Shown here one piece after another: positions 21,823 through 42,812 of a stretch of 43,201 bases of DNA. A program made the position numbers and the translations under genes. The notes under the pieces are model-generated. The model was not told the DNA's origin, made no database searches, and saw only the letters and a program-made list of their open reading frames with translations. The DNA is from a virus. The stretch is taken from positions 1 through 43,201 of IMG/VR virus record IMGVR_UViG_3300045950_000321. One strand, written 5' to 3'. Position 1 is the stretch's first letter. Every line of letters begins with the position of its first letter.

Positions 21823-23280
21823 GTGGTCGTTTCGCTGAAAGCCTTCCGACGCCGGGTCGGGGCGTTCATCGGGGGCTTCGAGGCAGGACTGGCGAACCGA
21901 CGTCTCAAAGGTTTCCAGCCGAGCCGGGCGCATCTCAACACGCTGATTGCCGCGGCCGGACCCGACATTACCGCGCGGGCCCGCTGGCTCGTGCGCAACA
22001 ACGGCTATGCCGCTAATGCGATCGAGAGCTGGGCCGGCAACGTCGTGGGTGCAGGCATCAAGCCGTCCTCGATGATCTCGGATTCCGACCTCAAGGCGCA
22101 GGTCCAGAAGCTCTGGCTCCACTGGACGGACGAAGCCGACGCCGAGGCGTTCACGGACTTCTATGGCCTGCAGCGTCGCGCGGCACGTGAGGTGTTCATC
22201 GCAGGCGAAGTGTTCTTTCGGTTCCGGCCGCGCCGGCCGCAGGACGGGCTCACGATGCCGCTGCAGCTGCAGATGCTCCCCTCCGAGATGCTGCCGATCA
22301 ATCGCAACGAGGTTGCGCAGAACGGCAACGTGATCCGGCAGGGCATCGAGTTCGACGCAATCGGCCGACGCGTGGCCTACCACTTTCTGCGCCGGCACCC
22401 GGGCGACTTGACCGACCCCCGGCTCGCGGGCGAGACGGTGCGTATTCCGGCCTCCGAGATCGTGCACATCGTCGACCCGGTCGATGCCGGGCAAATGCGG
22501 GGCATTTCGCGCTTCGCCGCCGGGATCGTGAAGCTGTTCCTCCTCGACCAGTACGACGACGCCGAGCTCGACCGCAAGAAGGTCGCGGCAATGCACGCGC
22601 TTTTCATCACGACGCCGGCGCCGACCGAGCCACTCGACGCCGCGGAAGGACGCGACGAGAATGACGAGCGTACCATCGACCTGCAGCCGGGCCAGATCAC
22701 CATGCTGGAACCGGGCGAGGAAGTTCAAACCTCCTCACCCGCGGAATCGGGTCAGACCTACGAACCATTTCAGTACCGCACGCTGCTGCAAGTGTCGGCG
22801 GCGCTCGGCGTGCCCTATGCGTATCTCTCGAATGACATGCTCAAGGCGAACTATTCGAACTCGCGCCTTGCGCTCCTTGAATTCCGCCGCCGCATCGAAG
22901 CCTACCAGCATGCCGTGATCGTCTGGCAGCTCTGCCGCCGGGTGTGGGCGCGCTGGATGGACACCGCGGTGCTTGCGGGGGCGATCGACCTTCCAGACTA
23001 TAACCAGCGCCGGCGCGAGTATCTTGCCTGCGGTTGGTTGCCGCCGAAGTGGGATTGGGTCGATCCCTTGAAGGATGCGCGCGCCGAGATCGAGCAGATC
23101 GAGGCGGGCCTCAAGAGCCGCACGCAGGCACTCGCCGAGCGCGGCTATGACGCCGAGCAGGTGGATGCCGAGATCTCGGCCGACCGGGCGCGCGAGAAGT
23201 CGCTGGGTTTGAGCTTTGCGACCTCCGTCAACCTGCCGGCGGTAAACTTGTCTACGGCCTCCGACGCGGTGACGAACTGA
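21823..23280 (+). CDS. Portal protein, lambda gpB family (485 aa)
   Basis: Dodecameric ring at the unique capsid vertex through which DNA passes. Family motifs are ARARWLVRNNGYAANAIESW and AGNVVGAGIKPS in the N-terminal third, AGEVFFRFRPR, the EIVHIVDPVDAGQMRG region, and PYAYLSNDMLKANYSNSRLA near 320-340. Length is close to lambda gpB before processing. The start is a GTG at 21823, 4 bases after gpW. The 3' end overlaps the convergent toxin gene by 29 bases. Confidence 0.95.
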   Translation: MVVSLKAFRRRVGAFIGGFEAGLANRRLKGFQPSRAHLNTLIAAAGPDITARARWLVRNNGYAANAIESWAGNVVGAGIKPSSMISDSDLKAQVQKLWLHWTDEADAEAFTDFYGLQRRAAREVFIAGEVFFRFRPRRPQDGLTMPLQLQMLPSEMLPINRNEVAQNGNVIRQGIEFDAIGRRVAYHFLRRHPGDLTDPRLAGETVRIPASEIVHIVDPVDAGQMRGISRFAAGIVKLFLLDQYDDAELDRKKVAAMHALFITTPAPTEPLDAAEGRDENDERTIDLQPGQITMLEPGEEVQTSSPAESGQTYEPFQYRTLLQVSAALGVPYAYLSNDMLKANYSNSRLALLEFRRRIEAYQHAVIVWQLCRRVWARWMDTAVLAGAIDLPDYNQRRREYLACGWLPPKWDWVDPLKDARAEIEQIEAGLKSRTQALAERGYDAEQVDAEISADRAREKSLGLSFATSVNLPAVNLSTASDAVTN

Positions 23281-23677
23281 ATGGATCGAGCACCGATACG
23301 CCCGTCGGTTCGAAATCCGATACGTTGCGTGTTACCACCGTGAGGCCGTGTTCGAGCGCGATGGCCGCGATTTGAAGGTCGGCGCCATGATGGCCGAGCG
23401 CTGCGCTCAGTTGTCCCCAGCGCCGCGCGGAAGCAAGATCGAAAGGCAGAACGCGGTCGCCATAAACGGTCAGGACCTGGTCCAGCCAGCGGGCAAGCAT
23501 CGCGGCAAAATTTGGGTCCTTGCCGCGCTGCAAGGCGATCCCGCGCTCGATCTCGCCGATGCCGATGACGCTGAGGAACAGGTCGCTGCTCCGTTGGCGA
23601 CTGATCCAATTTTCCACGTTGGCATCACGCCGCCGCTTGGCCAGCGCCGAGAGAACGTCGGTGTCGATCAGGTACAT
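23252..23677 (-). CDS. PIN-domain toxin, VapC/FitB-like (141 aa)
   Basis: Predicted Mg-dependent ribonuclease toxin. PIN acidic residues are D5 and D7 in YLIDTDVLSAL, E43 in IGIGEIERG, D100 in HHGADLQIAAIA and the final D in VSDFEPTGV. Partner gene upstream encodes a Phd-type antitoxin; the toxin ATG overlaps the antitoxin stop by one base (TGATG), so they are coupled. The pair lies leftward inside the rightward head operon. By family knowledge, free toxin cuts RNA and arrests growth, stabilising the prophage or blocking other phages. The C-terminal 8 residues are variable. Confidence 0.92.
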   Translation of the reverse strand: MYLIDTDVLSALAKRRRDANVENWISRQRSSDLFLSVIGIGEIERGIALQRGKDPNFAAMLARWLDQVLTVYGDRVLPFDLASARRWGQLSAALGHHGADLQIAAIALEHGLTVVTRNVSDFEPTGVSVLDPFSSSPRRRP

Positions 23678-23934
23678 CAGAATTCGACGGCGCGCGGCAT
23701 CGCCTTGAGACGATCAAACTCAACGTCGCCTTGAGGTATCGCGAGCAACAGCTCGGCAAAGCTTGGGGCCTTCAGCTGCTCCAGCTTGCGCAAACGCTCG
23801 TATTCGTCGGCGGCAACGACGACGACGGCCGGTTTGCCGTGCTTGGTCACGGTCTGCGGCTTGCGGCGGGCGGCCTCGACCACCTCACTGAACCGGTTCT
23901 TGGCGTCCTGCACCGACCACGTGCGGTGAGCCAT
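23677..23934 (-). CDS. Antitoxin, Phd/YefM family (85 aa)
   Basis: Antitoxin that should neutralise the adjacent PIN toxin and repress the operon. N-terminal DNA-binding part: TWSVQDAKNRFSEVVEAARR, then PQTVTKHGKPAVVVVAADEYERL, the classic Phd/YefM pattern. The C-terminal 25 residues (LLLAIPQGDVEFDRLKAMPR) would bind the toxin. The ATG at 23934 has AGGAGA about 8 bases upstream; a longer frame to 24219 is shadow. A palindrome lies 14 bases upstream of the start. Confidence 0.92.
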   Translation of the reverse strand: MAHRTWSVQDAKNRFSEVVEAARRKPQTVTKHGKPAVVVVAADEYERLRKLEQLKAPSFAELLLAIPQGDVEFDRLKAMPRAVEF

Positions 23935-23947
23935 CCCATCTCTCCTA

Positions 23948-23962
23948 GCTAGATCTTCTAGC
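23948..23962. promoter_or_regulatory. Palindromic operator of the toxin-antitoxin pair
   Basis: GCTAGA-TCT-TCTAGC is a perfect palindrome with a 3-base centre, just before the antitoxin start and beside an AT-rich leftward -10-like TATTCT (near 23965-23970). Phd-type antitoxins bind short dyads at this position, so it is the likely autoregulatory site. Confidence 0.65.
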
Positions 23963-24019
23963 CAGAATATCGGACCGCCTACTCGATTCGTCAAGGGCCC
24001 CGCGAAGGGTAACGTACGC

Positions 24020-25306
24020 ATGCTCAACCTGCCACACGTGGCATCTCGCGTGTTTGGGACGCCGCTCATGATCGCGCGCCCCAAGCTCGAGGCGATCCTC
24101 GGCGTCTTGGCGCCACGCCTTAGCGGTGAGACGATCGAACCGATCGACCAGACGTCCGATCCGGCGCCCCTCACCTCGATCACGGTCGAGCGCATTGCAG
24201 TCGTTTCCGTAATCGGCACGCTGGTGACCCGCTCCGGCTATCTCGATGCCGCGAGCGGGCTCATGTCTTATGGCGACATTGGTGACGCCATTGCCGGCGC
24301 GATGTCGGACCCAACCGTCCGCGGTGTGATCCTCGACGTGGACTCCTCGGGCGGGGAGGTTGGCGGCCTGTTCGATCTTGCCGACCGGATCAGCGCGATC
24401 AGGACGGCCGGCGGTAAGCCGCTGTGGGCGGTTGCGAACGAAAGCGCGCTGTCGGCAGCCTATGCCATCGCGAGTACGGCCGATCGGGTCTACGTCACCC
24501 GCACCGGCGAGGTCGGTTCGATTGGCGTGGTTGCCGTGCATGTCGATGAAAGCCAGGCTGACGTCAAAGCGGGTCTCGCCTGGACCTTCATTTTCGCGGG
24601 CGACCGCAAGGTTGACGCGAATGCACATGAGCCGCTCTCGGAGCGTGCCCGGTCAACGATTCAGGCGGACGTTGATCGCCTCTACTCCGAATTTTGCCGT
24701 CTGGTTGCCGCCAATCGCGGCCTGACGACCGAGGCGGTGCGGGGCACCAACGCCGCGATCTATCGCGGAGAGCTCGCGATCCGCGCAGATCTCGCCGATC
24801 GTCTCGGTACGCTCGACCTCGCCATCGCCGAAATGGCCGCTGAGCTCGATCGGAGCGCATCAACGCGCGCTTTTATTAACCCGACACTCAAGAGGAGCCT
24901 GTCCATGGCGACGAACGAAACCGAACAGATCCAAGATCAGCCGAGCGAACCGCAGCAGGCGGCCGACGCTCCGCCGGCCGTAACACAGGCTGCGCCGGAT
25001 CCCGCGCGGCCGGCAGCGCCTGCATCAACCACGCCCGAAGCGAGCGCGGCCGAGCGATTGCGCGCGGAGTTCGCCGAGATTGCCGCGATTGCGGCACAAG
25101 CAGCTCGCCTTGATGTTGCGGTCGACGCCGCCGACGCGCTGAAAAAGGGCATTACGCCCGATGCGTTGCGTCGCTCGGTGCTCGACACGCTCACTGCGCG
25201 TGCCGAGGCAACGAGCGTCATTGCCGCAGCACCGTCCACTCCCGCTGCGGGCGACAGCCCGATCGTGCGGCGTGCACGTGAGCGGGCCGCGGCGGCTCGT
25301 GCCTGA
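24020..25306 (+). CDS. S49 head maturation protease fused to scaffold (lambda gpC-like) (428 aa)
   Basis: Serine protease that processes capsid components; the C-terminal part is the scaffold. Protease: VISVIGTL-like strand (VVSVIGTLVTR), RGVILDVDSSGGEVGG, catalytic S145 in ALSAAYAIA and Lys197 in AGDRKVDANAH, the Ser-Lys pair of SppA-like S49 enzymes. From about residue 296 the sequence becomes Gln/Pro/Ala-rich and then helical (AERLRAEFAEIAAIAAQAAR), as in scaffolds. An internal start at 24905 could yield the scaffold alone. The gene resumes the head operon after the toxin-antitoxin pair. Confidence 0.93.
   Translation: MLNLPHVASRVFGTPLMIARPKLEAILGVLAPRLSGETIEPIDQTSDPAPLTSITVERIAVVSVIGTLVTRSGYLDAASGLMSYGDIGDAIAGAMSDPTVRGVILDVDSSGGEVGGLFDLADRISAIRTAGGKPLWAVANESALSAAYAIASTADRVYVTRTGEVGSIGVVAVHVDESQADVKAGLAWTFIFAGDRKVDANAHEPLSERARSTIQADVDRLYSEFCRLVAANRGLTTEAVRGTNAAIYRGELAIRADLADRLGTLDLAIAEMAAELDRSASTRAFINPTLKRSLSMATNETEQIQDQPSEPQQAADAPPAVTQAAPDPARPAAPASTTPEASAAERLRAEFAEIAAIAAQAARLDVAVDAADALKKGITPDALRRSVLDTLTARAEATSVIAAAPSTPAAGDSPIVRRARERAAAARA
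24905..25306 (+). CDS. Nested scaffold protein from internal start (Nu3-like, 133 aa)
   Basis: An in-frame ATG at 24905 is preceded by AGAGGAGCC (24891-24899) at ideal spacing, inside the protease gene. The product would start MATNETEQIQDQ and consist only of the disordered and helical scaffold part. In lambda, gene Nu3 is nested in gene C in just this way. The ribosome binding site inside coding sequence is the direct evidence; production is inferred. Confidence 0.7.
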   Translation: MATNETEQIQDQPSEPQQAADAPPAVTQAAPDPARPAAPASTTPEASAAERLRAEFAEIAAIAAQAARLDVAVDAADALKKGITPDALRRSVLDTLTARAEATSVIAAAPSTPAAGDSPIVRRARERAAAARA

Positions 25307-26853: not shown

Positions 26854-27189
26854 ATGGACGCCTTCGCCGCCGCAACCGATGCGCTGTTCGCCGATCCGAA
26901 CATCGCCCGCGACGCCATCTGGCGCGTGGGCGGTCTTGGCCCGGGATTCTTCGTCCGCGTCGTCACGCGCCGGCCGGACGACGTTGTCGGTTTTGGCGAC
27001 AGCCGGGCCATCCTCTCGATACTGCTGATCGACGTGCGCCGCTCCGACGTAACGGCGCCGGCAAGTGGCGACACGGTCGAGATCCCCGGGCCAGGCCCAG
27101 GGACCAGCGAGACCTTCCAGATCATCGCAACGCCCACCCTCGACAGCCTGCGGCTCGTGTGGACATGCGAGGCGGCGGCGCCGCCATGA
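26854..27189 (+). CDS. Head-tail joining protein, FII-like (111 aa)
   Basis: Small connector protein expected between portal/head completion ring and tail. The sequence ends in a beta-rich region typical of lambda gpFII: GDTVEIPGPGPGTSETFQII, then TLDSLRLVWTCEA. N-terminal helix: FAAATDALFADPNIARDAIW. Length is near lambda FII (117 aa), and the position between capsid and tail completion genes is the same. AGGAGGG provides the ribosome binding site. Confidence 0.75.
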   Translation: MDAFAAATDALFADPNIARDAIWRVGGLGPGFFVRVVTRRPDDVVGFGDSRAILSILLIDVRRSDVTAPASGDTVEIPGPGPGTSETFQIIATPTLDSLRLVWTCEAAAPP

Positions 27190-27192
27190 ACC

Positions 27193-27849
27193 ATGCGCTT
27201 CACGCTGAAGACCGATGACCTCTTCAAGGGTCTAAGCGACATTGAAGGCGATGCGGCGCGTTCCGTCACCCGCGCGATGCGCGAGGTGACGGACGACCTC
27301 AAGGCTGATCTGCGTGCCGATGTCGTCGATTCTGGTCTCGGGCAGCGCCTCGCCAATACCTGGCGCGGCAAGACCTATCCCGAGGGCGGCGCCAGCCTGG
27401 AAGCGGTGTCCTTCGTCTGGTCGAAAGCGCCGAACATCGTCGATGCCTTCGACCGCGGCGTGACGATCCGGTCGCACCGCGGCTTCTGGCTCGCCATTCC
27501 AACGCCGGCTGCTGGCGGCAAGGGTATCAGCGCCACCGGCACCATGCAGCGCATCACACCGGGCGGCTGGGAGCGGCGCACCGGCATGCGGCTGCGCTTC
27601 GTATACCGGCGCGGCCAGCCTTCGCTGCTCGTCGCCGACAACGCGCGGCTGAGCAGAAAGGGGCTCGCCAGGCCGAACATCGGCCGCACCCGAACAGGCG
27701 CTCAGTTCACCCGGCTGAGGGGGCGCTCGACCGTCGTGGTCTTCGTCCTGGTCCCGCAGGTCACATTGCGCAAGCGGCTCGATATCGCCTCGATTGCACA
27801 ACGCTGGGCCGATCGCGTGCCAGGCGCGATTGCGAGTCATTGGAGATGA
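27193..27849 (+). CDS. DUF6441 family tail completion protein, gpZ-like position (218 aa)
   Basis: Belongs to a phage family seen between head joiner and tail terminator. Features: N-terminal helix DIEGDAARSVTRAMREVTDD, then LGQRLANTWRGKTYPEGG, VWSKAPNIVDAFDRGVTIRS, and a C-terminal segment STVVVFVLVPQVTLRKRLDI that is conserved in DUF6441. It stands where lambda has gpZ, so a role in tail completion is inferred. The stop overlaps the ATG of a 29-codon membrane ORF (ATGA). Confidence 0.8.
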   Translation: MRFTLKTDDLFKGLSDIEGDAARSVTRAMREVTDDLKADLRADVVDSGLGQRLANTWRGKTYPEGGASLEAVSFVWSKAPNIVDAFDRGVTIRSHRGFWLAIPTPAAGGKGISATGTMQRITPGGWERRTGMRLRFVYRRGQPSLLVADNARLSRKGLARPNIGRTRTGAQFTRLRGRSTVVVFVLVPQVTLRKRLDIASIAQRWADRVPGAIASHWR

Positions 27850-27935
27850 CTGTGAAGCAAAAACGCGCTGCGGTCCTGATGACGCTCTTGGCGTTCGTGT
27901 TCATCATTTCGGTGCTGGTGGCGAGCCTGCGGTGA
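27846..27935 (+). CDS. 29-aa single-transmembrane microprotein
   Basis: An ORF of 29 codons begins with an ATGA overlap on the stop of the DUF6441 gene and ends with a GTGA overlap on the start of the tail terminator gene, so all three reading frames are used in sequence. The product starts MTVKQKRAA and then has an uninterrupted hydrophobic helix of about 20 residues (VLMTLLAFVFIISVLVASL) ending in Arg. The positive-inside start and length suit one membrane span. The hydrophobicity would be unlikely by chance in GC-rich DNA, where shadow frames are Arg/Ala/Gly-rich. No homologue is known to me. Role unknown: a lysis accessory, superinfection factor or translational coupler are possible. Confidence 0.65.
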   Translation: MTVKQKRAAVLMTLLAFVFIISVLVASLR

Positions 27936-28366
27936 CGAGCAAGCGCGAACAGGTCCTTGATGCGGTCAAGGCTCTCGTTGCAGCCGCGCTGCCGGACGCG
28001 GACGTCAAGCGCAACCTCGCCAAGGCGGACCGCATCCCGCCCGGCGGTCTCATCATCGTCCGCGACGGCGACGCGGGCGAGCCAGAAGTCATGCTGTCGC
28101 CGCTCACTTACATCTACACGCACCGGATCCCGATCGAGGTTGCGGCGTGCGAGACCTCGAGCAAGACCCGCGAGCAGGTGCTCGACGAAATGCTCGGCGC
28201 GATCGGCACTGCTATTACTGGCGATCGCACGCTGGGCGGCCTCTGCGATTTCATCGAGACAGAGGCGCCGGCGACCGACGATGTCGAGACCGCGGGCGCC
28301 CGCCCCGGTCGCTGGGCCGACGCCGCGATCGTTGCGGTCTACGCCACGACCGATCCGCTGAACTGA
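27932..28366 (+). CDS. Tail terminator protein, gpU-like (144 aa)
   Basis: Caps the tail tube during assembly. Starts with GTG at 27932, overlapping the microprotein stop. The N-terminal helix SKREQVLDAVKALVAAALPD, the GLIIVRDGDAGEPEVMLSP strand, YIYTHRIPIEVAACE and the end WADAAIVAVYATTDPLN agree with the minor tail protein U fold of siphophages. A longer in-frame start at 27794 lies inside the upstream gene and is unlikely. Position before the tail tube gene supports the call. Confidence 0.8.
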   Translation: MTSKREQVLDAVKALVAAALPDADVKRNLAKADRIPPGGLIIVRDGDAGEPEVMLSPLTYIYTHRIPIEVAACETSSKTREQVLDEMLGAIGTAITGDRTLGGLCDFIETEAPATDDVETAGARPGRWADAAIVAVYATTDPLN

Positions 28367-28390
28367 ACACCAACAATCCAGGAGAGTCCC

Positions 28391-29332
28391 ATGGCACGCG
28401 CGCGCGGCGCCAATGCCGTCATGGCGGCCGCATTCGAGACGACCTACGGCACGCCGCCGGTGGCCGGTTACAAGAAACTCCCCTTCGTCTCCTCGGCGCT
28501 CGGCGACGAGCAGAACCTGATCGCCAGCGATCTCCTTGGGCTTGGCCGGGAGCCGCTCCCGCCGAGCCGGGATGTCGTGAACAACGAGGGCGACGTTGTC
28601 CTCCCGGTCGATCTCCGCAACTTCGGCTATTGGCTGAAGCTCCTGCTCGGCACGCCGACATCGATCGACAACGCCGGCGTCTTCACCCACACGTTCGTCT
28701 CGGGCGCGCTCACGCTGCCGTCGATGTCGATCGAGGTCGGCCTGCCGGAGGTCCCGAGCTATGGCATGAACTTCGGCGTGCGCGCCAACTCGATGCGCAT
28801 CCAGCTGCAGCGATCGGGACTCCTCAACGCCACCATGAGCCTGGTCGCGCAAGGCGAAACGCGGACCACGACGTCGAGCGCTGCTTCGCCCAGCGAGGCG
28901 GTGATCGAGCGCTTTTCGCAGTTCATGGGCGAGATCAAGCGCAACGGCACTGCCCTCGGGCAGATCGTCTCGGCCGAGCTCATGTACTCGAACAATCTCG
29001 ACAAGGTCGAAGTGATCCGGCCTGACGGCCGGATCGAGGACGCGGACCCGGCCATGGTCAGCGTGACCGGCAACGTGGCCGTGCGCTTTGCCGACACCGT
29101 GCTGCTCGACCAGGCGGTGAACGGCACCGCCTGCGAGCTTTCCTTCGGCTGGACGATCGGCGCTGACAAGTCGCTCCTGTTCACCCTGCACGAAGTCTAC
29201 CTGCCGCGCCCGAAACTGCCCATCACCGGACCGGGCGGCGTTCAGGCCACATTTGCGTTCCAGTCGGCCAAGGACCCAGGCCTGCAGAAGACACTGACGG
29301 CCGCCCTCGTCAACGACGTGTCAGCCTACTGA
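28391..29332 (+). CDS. Major tail tube protein, gpV-like (313 aa)
   Basis: Forms the tail tube hexamers. Family features: N-terminal ANAVMAAAFETTYGTPP, which is common to rhizobial phage tail tube proteins, then GRDVVNNEGDV-like region (SRDVVNNEGDVVLPVD), FGYWLKLLLGTPTS, and the C-terminal GGVQATFAFQSAKDPGLQKT. It is longer than lambda gpV (246 aa), as usual for this group. CAGGAGAG is the ribosome binding site. The gene is followed by the tail chaperones as in most siphophages. Confidence 0.9.
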   Translation: MARARGANAVMAAAFETTYGTPPVAGYKKLPFVSSALGDEQNLIASDLLGLGREPLPPSRDVVNNEGDVVLPVDLRNFGYWLKLLLGTPTSIDNAGVFTHTFVSGALTLPSMSIEVGLPEVPSYGMNFGVRANSMRIQLQRSGLLNATMSLVAQGETRTTTSSAASPSEAVIERFSQFMGEIKRNGTALGQIVSAELMYSNNLDKVEVIRPDGRIEDADPAMVSVTGNVAVRFADTVLLDQAVNGTACELSFGWTIGADKSLLFTLHEVYLPRPKLPITGPGGVQATFAFQSAKDPGLQKTLTAALVNDVSAY

Positions 29333-29765: not shown

Positions 29766-30064
29766 TCGCCCTCGCCGAATGGCACTTCGGCGGAGGCGAG
29801 GGTTATTGCGCGGCCTGCCCTGAGACCTGTGCCGGCTGCCCGTACGTCGAACACGCGCCCACAACGGCGGACGGGATCGCCGCCTGGGGCGTGCTCAAAC
29901 GCGCGGCCGGCCAGGTCCGCGCGGTGATGAGTGGCGTCTACGCTCTCGATTTCGGCGCCGTGTTGTTGCTCGCCGACGCCATGGGAGCGCTCAATACGCT
30001 TCTCGTCGACCTCTTGCCCGAGATCGAGCCGATCATCGTTCGCGGCTACGCCCGAGACCCATAA
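29759..30064 (+). CDS. Frameshift extension of the tail chaperone (GT T-part, 101 codons)
   Basis: After the slip the -1 frame begins RLIALAEWHFGGGEGY and runs to a TAA at 30062-30064, directly before the tape measure ATG. No ATG start precedes it with a ribosome binding site, so it should be made only as a fusion of about 238 aa with the upstream short form. It has a tight cysteine cluster, CAACPETCAGC, and a hydrophobic helix ALDFGAVLLLADAMGALNTL. By analogy with lambda GT, the extension contacts the tape measure protein and tail tube subunits. The cysteine cluster is unusual for a GT part. Confidence 0.82.
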   Translation, partial: RLIALAEWHFGGGEGYCAACPETCAGCPYVEHAPTTADGIAAWGVLKRAAGQVRAVMSGVYALDFGAVLLLADAMGALNTLLVDLLPEIEPIIVRGYARDP

Positions 30065-41054: not shown

Positions 41055-41861
41055 ATGAAAGAAACCTACGACGAGGCGCTCAAGCGCCTGCTCGCGCACG
41101 AGGGCGGCTACACCAACCATCCTTCCGATCCAGGCGGCCCGACCAACTTCGGCATCACGATCCACGACTACCGCAAATACGTGAGGCCGAATGCAACTGC
41201 GGACGACGTGCGCGCCATGAGGCTCGACGAGGCGAAAGCGATCTACCGCGCCAAGTACTGGGATGCGCAGCGCTGTGACGACCTGCCCGCCGGCGTCGAC
41301 TACACCGTCTTCGACTACGGCGTGAATTCCGGGATCGGTCGCTCGGGTCGCGTCCTGCGCCGCGTCGTTGGACTGCCCGACACAACGCATGCGGTGACCG
41401 ACGAGGTGCTGCGCGCCGTTGCCAGGCGCGATCCGAAGGCGCTGGTGACCGCAATCAACGACGAGCGGCTGCGCTTCCTGAAAAGCCTCAAGACCTGGCC
41501 GGTGTTCGGCAGTGGCTGGGGCCGCCGGGTCGCCGAGGTCAAGGCGTTCTCGCTCACCGCCGAGCACACGATCGTCGCCAATGCGCCGGCGTCGCATCCC
41601 ATGCCCACCGAGGCCGCGCCCGCGAAGGGTGTCGTGCCGCTCCCGAAGGGCCTGCAGAAGGTCACGACCGCCACTCCCGTCGCCGCCGGCGGCGCCACAG
41701 CGAAGACCTTGCACGAATCCGGGCACGACCCCTGGACCATCCTCGCGGTGGTCGGCGGCTTTGTCCTGATCGCCGGGATCGGCTGGGTCACCTTCCACTG
41801 GTGGCAGCGGCGCCGGCAACACGCGCCCACTCCCGGCATCGTGCCGGTGCCGGCGATGTGA
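41055..41861 (+). CDS. GH108 endolysin with C-terminal membrane anchor (268 aa)
   Basis: Muramidase that cuts the peptidoglycan glycan chain. The catalytic Glu is E16 in LLAHEGGYTNHPSDPGGPTNFG, the GH108 signature. The next 110 residues hold VFDYGVNSGIGRSGRVLRRV and ERLRFLKSLKTWPVFGSGWG of the PG_binding_3 part. After a Pro/Ala/Thr linker comes a hydrophobic helix TILAVVGGFVLIAGIGWVTF (about 225-245) and a basic tail. A membrane helix at the C-terminus is not usual; lysins with anchors are normally N-terminal SAR types. The tail may hold the enzyme on the membrane until holin action. Confidence 0.92.
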   Translation: MKETYDEALKRLLAHEGGYTNHPSDPGGPTNFGITIHDYRKYVRPNATADDVRAMRLDEAKAIYRAKYWDAQRCDDLPAGVDYTVFDYGVNSGIGRSGRVLRRVVGLPDTTHAVTDEVLRAVARRDPKALVTAINDERLRFLKSLKTWPVFGSGWGRRVAEVKAFSLTAEHTIVANAPASHPMPTEAAPAKGVVPLPKGLQKVTTATPVAAGGATAKTLHESGHDPWTILAVVGGFVLIAGIGWVTFHWWQRRRQHAPTPGIVPVPAM

Positions 41862-42405: not shown

Positions 42406-42567
42406 ATGTTCTGGATCATCGCTGCACTGATCGGAGGCTACGTCGCCGCGATCTTCACCTGGCCGAGAATCCGCACCTGGGTCGTCGGCGTCGAGGCCGA
42501 GATCGCCTCGCTGCGCGAGAAGGCTCGCGCGCTCCAGGCCAAGATCAAGAGCTTCACCGGGGGATGA
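42406..42567 (+). CDS. Small membrane protein with coiled coil (53 aa), spanin- or holin-like
   Basis: Starts MFWIIAALIGGYVAAIFTWP, a single N-terminal transmembrane helix, followed by a charged heptad-like helix (VEAEIASLREKARALQAKIK). One N-terminal span plus a coiled coil is the layout of inner-membrane spanins, but these are usually longer; a holin accessory is also possible. A strong AGGAGGAG ribosome binding site lies 5-6 bases upstream. The stop overlaps the next ATG (ATGA). Confidence 0.75.
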   Translation: MFWIIAALIGGYVAAIFTWPRIRTWVVGVEAEIASLREKARALQAKIKSFTGG

Positions 42568-42812
42568 CCATGTGCGAGCGTATCAAAGCATGGTTCAAGC
42601 ACTCGGCCACGATTCTCTGGGCGCGGATCGTCGGGTTCAGCGGCTTCGTGTTCGCCGTGCTCGAAGCGACGGCTAACCTCTTCGAGCTGCCAGGGATCAG
42701 GGAGAACATCCAGCTTCTGCTCGATCCCAAGTACGTGCCCTACTACATCATTGCGATCGCGCTCGTGACCGAGCTCGCGCGCCGGCGCACGCTCAAGAAG
42801 GAAGCCCAATGA
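42564..42812 (+). CDS. Membrane protein, holin-like (82 aa)
   Basis: Two probable membrane helices: FSGFVFAVLEATANLF (about 24-40) and YYIIAIALVTELA (about 60-73), with a charged end RRRTLKKEAQ. It starts with an ATGA overlap on the preceding gene (an alternative ATG lies two codons later) and its own stop overlaps the following holin ATG, so the three small proteins are translated as a unit. A role as holin or antiholin is likely but not shown. Confidence 0.75.
   Translation: MTMCERIKAWFKHSATILWARIVGFSGFVFAVLEATANLFELPGIRENIQLLLDPKYVPYYIIAIALVTELARRRTLKKEAQ

Follow-up and report, generated by a model that had tools for sequence, protein, structure and literature searches.

A 27-Residue Predicted Membrane Protein Encoded Between the DUF6441 and Tail Terminator Genes of GTA-like Siphophages

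Here we describe a frame of 84 nt, located between the DUF6441 gene and the tail terminator gene of a siphophage, which, judging from the comparison of its homologues, is almost certainly a real gene under purifying selection. Its product, referred to below as the microprotein, is very likely a membrane protein with a single predicted span and represents a new family within a known class, that of tiny phage membrane proteins. The gene can be regarded with good confidence as accessory, i.e., optional for the phages that carry it. The family was missed by the annotation libraries that we searched, and its exact boundaries and the strong comparative evidence make direct testing feasible.

Genome Context

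The window, i.e., the whole stretch of DNA analyzed here, is the 43.2-kb virus record IMGVR_UViG_3300045950_000321, which comes from a phage that infects bacteria of soil and water. According to Pfam and PHROG matches over the window, the order of its head, neck, and tail genes is that of alphaproteobacterial GTA-like siphophages: head decoration protein D, major capsid protein E, head-tail attachment protein, DUF6441 protein, tail terminator, tail tube, tape measure, and the GTA_TIM tail-tip protein. An endolysin gene and then a holin-like gene follow past the tail genes, at the right end (Table 1). The order of head-tail attachment, DUF6441, terminator, and tail tube genes is shared by GTA-like siphophages and by Rhodobacter phages such as RcKemmy; however, the neck/tail region of the RcKemmy type is devoid of the microprotein gene, and the DUF6441 and terminator genes overlap there directly. 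An earlier reading of the window, made from the sequence alone, had proposed that such a protein is foreign to the known lambda and GTA gene sets, and this holds for the distant relatives that we examined, phages of Rhodobacter and of cyanobacteria, where the microprotein is absent. That reading was also right in that the microprotein gene and its two neighbors use three different frames. Two further small features of the structural region may be mentioned: a PIN-domain toxin gene with a Phd/YefM antitoxin gene lies on the opposite strand of the head-gene cluster (23252-24219, minus strand), and a 57-aa gene of unknown function (phrog_11212) is found between the tail assembly chaperone and tape measure genes (29891-30064).

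Table 1. Positions, in the window, of the microprotein gene, its translation signals, and the genes discussed with it.
Feature	Position	Strand	Evidence or remark
DUF6441 neck/tail protein (PF20039), 218 aa	27193..27849	+	Pfam E=1.2e-51, phrog_6367 E=2.3e-61
Shine-Dalgarno GGAG	27842..27845	+	within last DUF6441 codons, 6 nt upstream of GTG 27852
Upstream codons ATG ACT, alternative start, unconserved	27846..27851	+	ATG in 24/42 homologues
Microprotein gene, 27 aa, MKQKRAAVLMTLLAFVFIISVLVASLR	27852..27935	+	42 distinct homologues, in-frame dN/dS, uninterrupted hydrophobic core
GTGA overlap: microprotein stop and GTG start of tail terminator	27932..27935	+	GTGA 22, ATGA 20 of 42/42
Tail terminator, 144 aa	27932..28366	+	phrog_4204 E=9.5e-26
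Endolysin GH108	at 41055		lysis module, right end of phage
Holin-like gene	at 42809		lysis module, right end of phage

Boundaries and Translation Signals of the Microprotein Gene

Relatives of the DUF6441 and tail terminator genes were gathered from viral contigs and genomes, and an alignment was built from the 42 distinct microprotein sequences. The 29-codon frame that had been noticed in the window, from the ATG at 27846 to the TGA ending at 27935, is indeed present, and its ATGA (27846-27849) does overlap the stop codon of the DUF6441 gene. This overlap is not conserved: position 27846 begins an ATG in 24 homologues and a GTG in four, the remainder having ATC, ATA, GTA, ACC, GGG, or GAA. 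The codon at 27852 is a valid start in every homologue (GTG in 31, ATG in 11), and a Shine-Dalgarno sequence, GGAG in 38 cases and GGAA in three, is placed exactly 6 nt before it in 41 of the 42. The start therefore lies two codons downstream of the one first proposed, 2 nt past the DUF6441 stop in 32 of 42 homologues, and the product has 27 residues. A longer protein beginning inside the DUF6441 gene was also considered and rejected, since the in-frame open stretch before the ATG spans from 3 to more than 300 codons among the relatives and there is thus no conserved extension.

At the 3' end, the overlap of the microprotein stop codon with the start of the tail terminator gene, described as GTGA for the window, was borne out and is kept as GTGA or ATGA in all 42 homologues. 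Among the relatives, there are also a variant with a stop one codon earlier and a TAATG overlap (L150) and a 24-aa form of the microprotein (L040). The median duplex energy with the anti-Shine-Dalgarno sequence is -6.4 kcal/mol for the microprotein and -3.9 kcal/mol, i.e., weaker, for the tail terminator. A consensus scan of positions 27100-28400 revealed no promoter-like (sigma-70 consensus) or terminator-like site.

Evidence for Selection on the Peptide

The ratio of nonsynonymous to synonymous change points to a protein-coding function. In 18 independent pairs, the in-frame dN/dS is 0.38-0.46 (p = 5e-9 to 3e-6), the value varying with the weight given to transitions and transversions. Read in its other two frames, this DNA shows no selection (dN/dS of 1.0-1.2 and 2.3-2.8), whereas the values for the flanking genes are 0.12 and 0.15. 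The microprotein frame contains no internal stop in any of the 42 homologues, and the other two frames contain such stops in 38 and 10 of them. A conserved hydrophobic frame with an excess of synonymous change, which the sequence-only reading had named as the support to be sought in relatives, is thus what the alignment contains. The selection also supports, although only indirectly, that the frame is translated. Given its shortness, one may suppose that the frame is open by chance. This is extremely improbable: in addition to the frame-specific dN/dS and the conserved start, Shine-Dalgarno sequence, and stop, the microprotein is the only one among the 278 short ORFs (20-60 aa) of the window whose Kyte-Doolittle mean over 19 residues is no lower than 2.0. 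Its value is 2.85, so that the hydrophobic run picked out in the window is confirmed to exceed chance.

With fewer than about 50 residues and one hydrophobic span, predicted at about residues 6-26, the microprotein resembles small single-span membrane proteins in size and predicted topology, and there is little else in the peptide. The lowest 19-residue Kyte-Doolittle mean over the homologues is 2.36; D, E, K, R, H, N, and Q are absent from positions 7-25 of every homologue (n = 42); and A7, L13, F15, and V23 scarcely vary. No periodicity along a helical face was seen for the conserved positions (p = 0.65). A basic start, which had been listed among the features of the peptide, is not general: the net charge of residues 2-5 (K and R minus D and E) is positive in 28 of 42 homologues, zero in 10, and negative in four.

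These properties bear on the possibility that the frame acts solely as a translational coupler or spacer and encodes an inert peptide. The invariable 3' overlap and the weaker Shine-Dalgarno sequence of the tail terminator would be expected from such a device. However, selection acts on the amino acids, with no polar core residue tolerated in any homologue, and relatives without the microprotein start the tail terminator from GGAG or another start; in three of them (L017, L031, and L125) the terminator begins 6 nt after the same GGAG. The purely coupling role, which had been one of the options put forward initially, is thereby weakened and we consider it very unlikely.

Searches of Pfam, PHROG, NCBIfam, and PADLOC, including their holin/antiholin, exclusion, and defence families, gave no family match for the microprotein; an NCBIfam match to ComGG (E=0.18, far below its cutoff) was taken as a chance effect of hydrophobicity. 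No match was obtained by tblastn of phage records, and the literature accessible to us contained no paper on DUF6441 or on small membrane proteins encoded next to tail terminators.

Distribution, Loss, and Replacement at the Junction

A profile built from the 42 peptides was run on about 790 genomes of the host lineages. Strong matches (E <= 3e-7, 34-58 bits) were obtained in nine genomes, which include seven previously known microprotein holders, and all nine are located at the DUF6441/terminator junction. Two weaker matches outside the junction were attributed to chance: that in L177 (E=4e-4) lies within a long open frame, and there are no tail genes around that in L180 (E=4e-4). The named host genomes belong to Hyphomicrobiales (Chelatococcus, Pseudolabrys, Pseudorhodoplanes, and a Nitrobacter MAG). 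Among them, Chelatococcus sambhunathii DSM 18167 has a prophage copy, L147, with 96% identity in the flanking proteins. The holin-like gene occurs four times and the endolysin gene five times on contig 1 of the Pseudolabrys MAG G005, which holds the microprotein locus L156. There are apparently several related prophages in this genome, only one of which yields a microprotein match.

On the tree of the two neighbor genes, the presence of the microprotein requires six changes by parsimony, at least four of which are forced by well-supported branches. The probable history is thus a single gain of the microprotein followed by four or more losses. According to the sequence-only reading, a broken frame or a missing hydrophobic pattern in close relatives would speak against the gene; frame and pattern are always kept where the gene is present, but some close relatives do not have the gene, having lost it by clean deletion and not by decay. 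Remnants of its 3' end can be recognized: in L047, ACGCTGCC precedes the terminator start, as in the microprotein gene of the sister L040, and L034, L036, and L038 have a CGACACC-like end. The records of relatives without the microprotein, some of them fragments, showed no second copy of it. The microprotein is thus present or absent among close relatives with its neighbors undisturbed, as is typical of accessory genes of the moron type, but the consensus scan gave it no promoter and terminator of its own, and we do not class it as a classical moron.

It could be thought that the microprotein aids virion assembly, either by retaining tail-neck intermediates at the membrane or as a minor component of the particle, and its location, which is always at the DUF6441/tail terminator junction and never elsewhere, would fit such a role. 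Since several losses occurred while both neighbors stayed intact and similar, and since distant relatives never carry the microprotein, we find this explanation decidedly improbable.

In six relatives, the junction is filled with larger cargo, and no record with both the microprotein and larger junction cargo was seen, although the numbers are small. ParE and Phd/YefM-type toxin-antitoxin genes occupy the junction in L056, L069, and L160, in the middle of the tail operon and on the opposite strand, as does a PIN toxin gene with its neighbors in L072. In L044 (3748-5435) and L045, the microprotein is replaced by a DUF5131 and TcmP-like gene pair, which in L044 matches A and B of the PADLOC candidate defence system PDC-M41; on the tree, the grouping of L044 with microprotein holders is weak (SH-aLRT 81). 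The pair in L044 and L045 suggests the existence of a slot for defence cargo inside the tail operon. The DUF6441/tail terminator junction is, then, an accessory-gene site in these phages, and a candidate anti-phage system is among the genes that it accommodates.

The toxin-antitoxin pairs found in the same slot are also in line with the microprotein perturbing a host membrane target, such as a protease, a transporter, or energy coupling, in the manner of the small hydrophobic toxins of type I systems or of small membrane proteins with regulatory roles, to which its size and hydrophobicity correspond. We nevertheless hold this to be unlikely, because no antitoxin candidate overlaps the microprotein, and its coupling to a structural gene, which is conserved, sets it apart from the loci of type I toxins.

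Possible Function

The role of the microprotein is most likely an accessory one based in the membrane, probably the inner membrane of the host. The function that we place first, with somewhat less than an even chance of being correct, is that of an inner-membrane accessory effector made late in infection, with superinfection exclusion as the leading candidate activity. In such a scheme, ribosomes would start at the GGAG-led GTG right after the DUF6441 gene, complete the microprotein, and then re-initiate on the overlapping start of the tail terminator, so that the microprotein would be synthesized late, along with the structural proteins. Twenty-seven residues are too few to emerge from the ribosome before termination, and tethering of the messenger by the nascent chain was judged unlikely for this reason. 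The peptide would be released before leaving the ribosome and would be inserted into the membrane afterwards, as happens with YohP of E. coli, likewise of 27 aa, whose post-translational insertion is carried out by SRP with SecYEG or YidC (PMC7549839). YohP and similar small membrane proteins (PMC7549839) resemble the microprotein in size (27 aa) and in consisting essentially of one transmembrane segment; YohP differs in being chromosomal and stress-associated and not phage-borne and nested between tail genes. Once in the inner membrane, the microprotein may make helix-helix contacts with a phage or host membrane protein and thereby provide an accessory, moron-like contribution to fitness, exclusion of competing phages being the first among the candidates.

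Exclusion taken specifically is a tentative possibility, suggested by analogy. It is mildly favored, as the leading guess, by the toxin-antitoxin and candidate defence cargo that relatives hold in the same slot and by the precedents of P22 SieA and HK97 gp15. The former is much larger than the microprotein, and the latter is longer and is encoded by a moron with its own expression signals. Both are exclusion proteins encoded by temperate phages, with a known or predicted location in the inner membrane (PMC10883804). SieA, which is expressed from the prophage and has been shown to block DNA entry, is an accessory protein of the inner membrane, as we propose for the microprotein; HK97 gp15 is a superinfection exclusion moron product of a long-tailed temperate phage, predicted to be in the inner membrane and likewise accessory (PMC10883804). 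Against exclusion stands the result of the sigma-70 consensus scan: as no promoter-like site was seen near the microprotein, its gene is probably not expressed in the lysogen, the state in which exclusion would be of most use. This late-only expression is the main argument against exclusion. Confinement to a single junction is not what one usually sees in a moron that moves freely, and it would agree as well with a role tied to the tail operon; the periodicity analysis does not support a specific binding face, and the variable N-terminal charge also counts against the reading placed first. That the microproteins (24-27 aa) form a new family of minimal phage membrane effectors, which use the stop-start link between two neck genes, guard the late-phase cell against competing phages, and occupy the slot given over in relatives to toxin-antitoxin genes or the candidate defence pair, is in its entirety a doubtful proposition.

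Relation to the Lysis Module

Lysis is a frequent role of small phage membrane proteins with a single span, and the sequence-only reading had named lysis timing among the options. An antiholin-like or holin-assisting peptide that sets the time of membrane breach would be expressed late, in agreement with the position of the microprotein, and would share its small size and hydrophobicity with holins, antiholins, and single-gene lysis peptides. There is, however, no family match to these proteins, and the lysis module is separate, at the right end of the phage, and unchanged in relatives lacking the microprotein. The holin is kept at 86% identity in L037, where the microprotein gene is deleted, and at 78% in L045, which has cargo instead; the corresponding values for the endolysin are 67% and 63%. 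Since the same holin is present in these two large relatives without the microprotein, it does not depend on the latter, which disfavors a role as holin partner, and the microprotein is neither linked to the lysis module nor varies with it. The lysis option is thus weakened, and we regard it as quite unlikely. Between the endolysin and holin-like genes of the window, there are two small genes without assignment (42406-42567 and 42564-42812), the first of which encodes a product that begins with a hydrophobic stretch; this pair may represent a spanin or a second holin.
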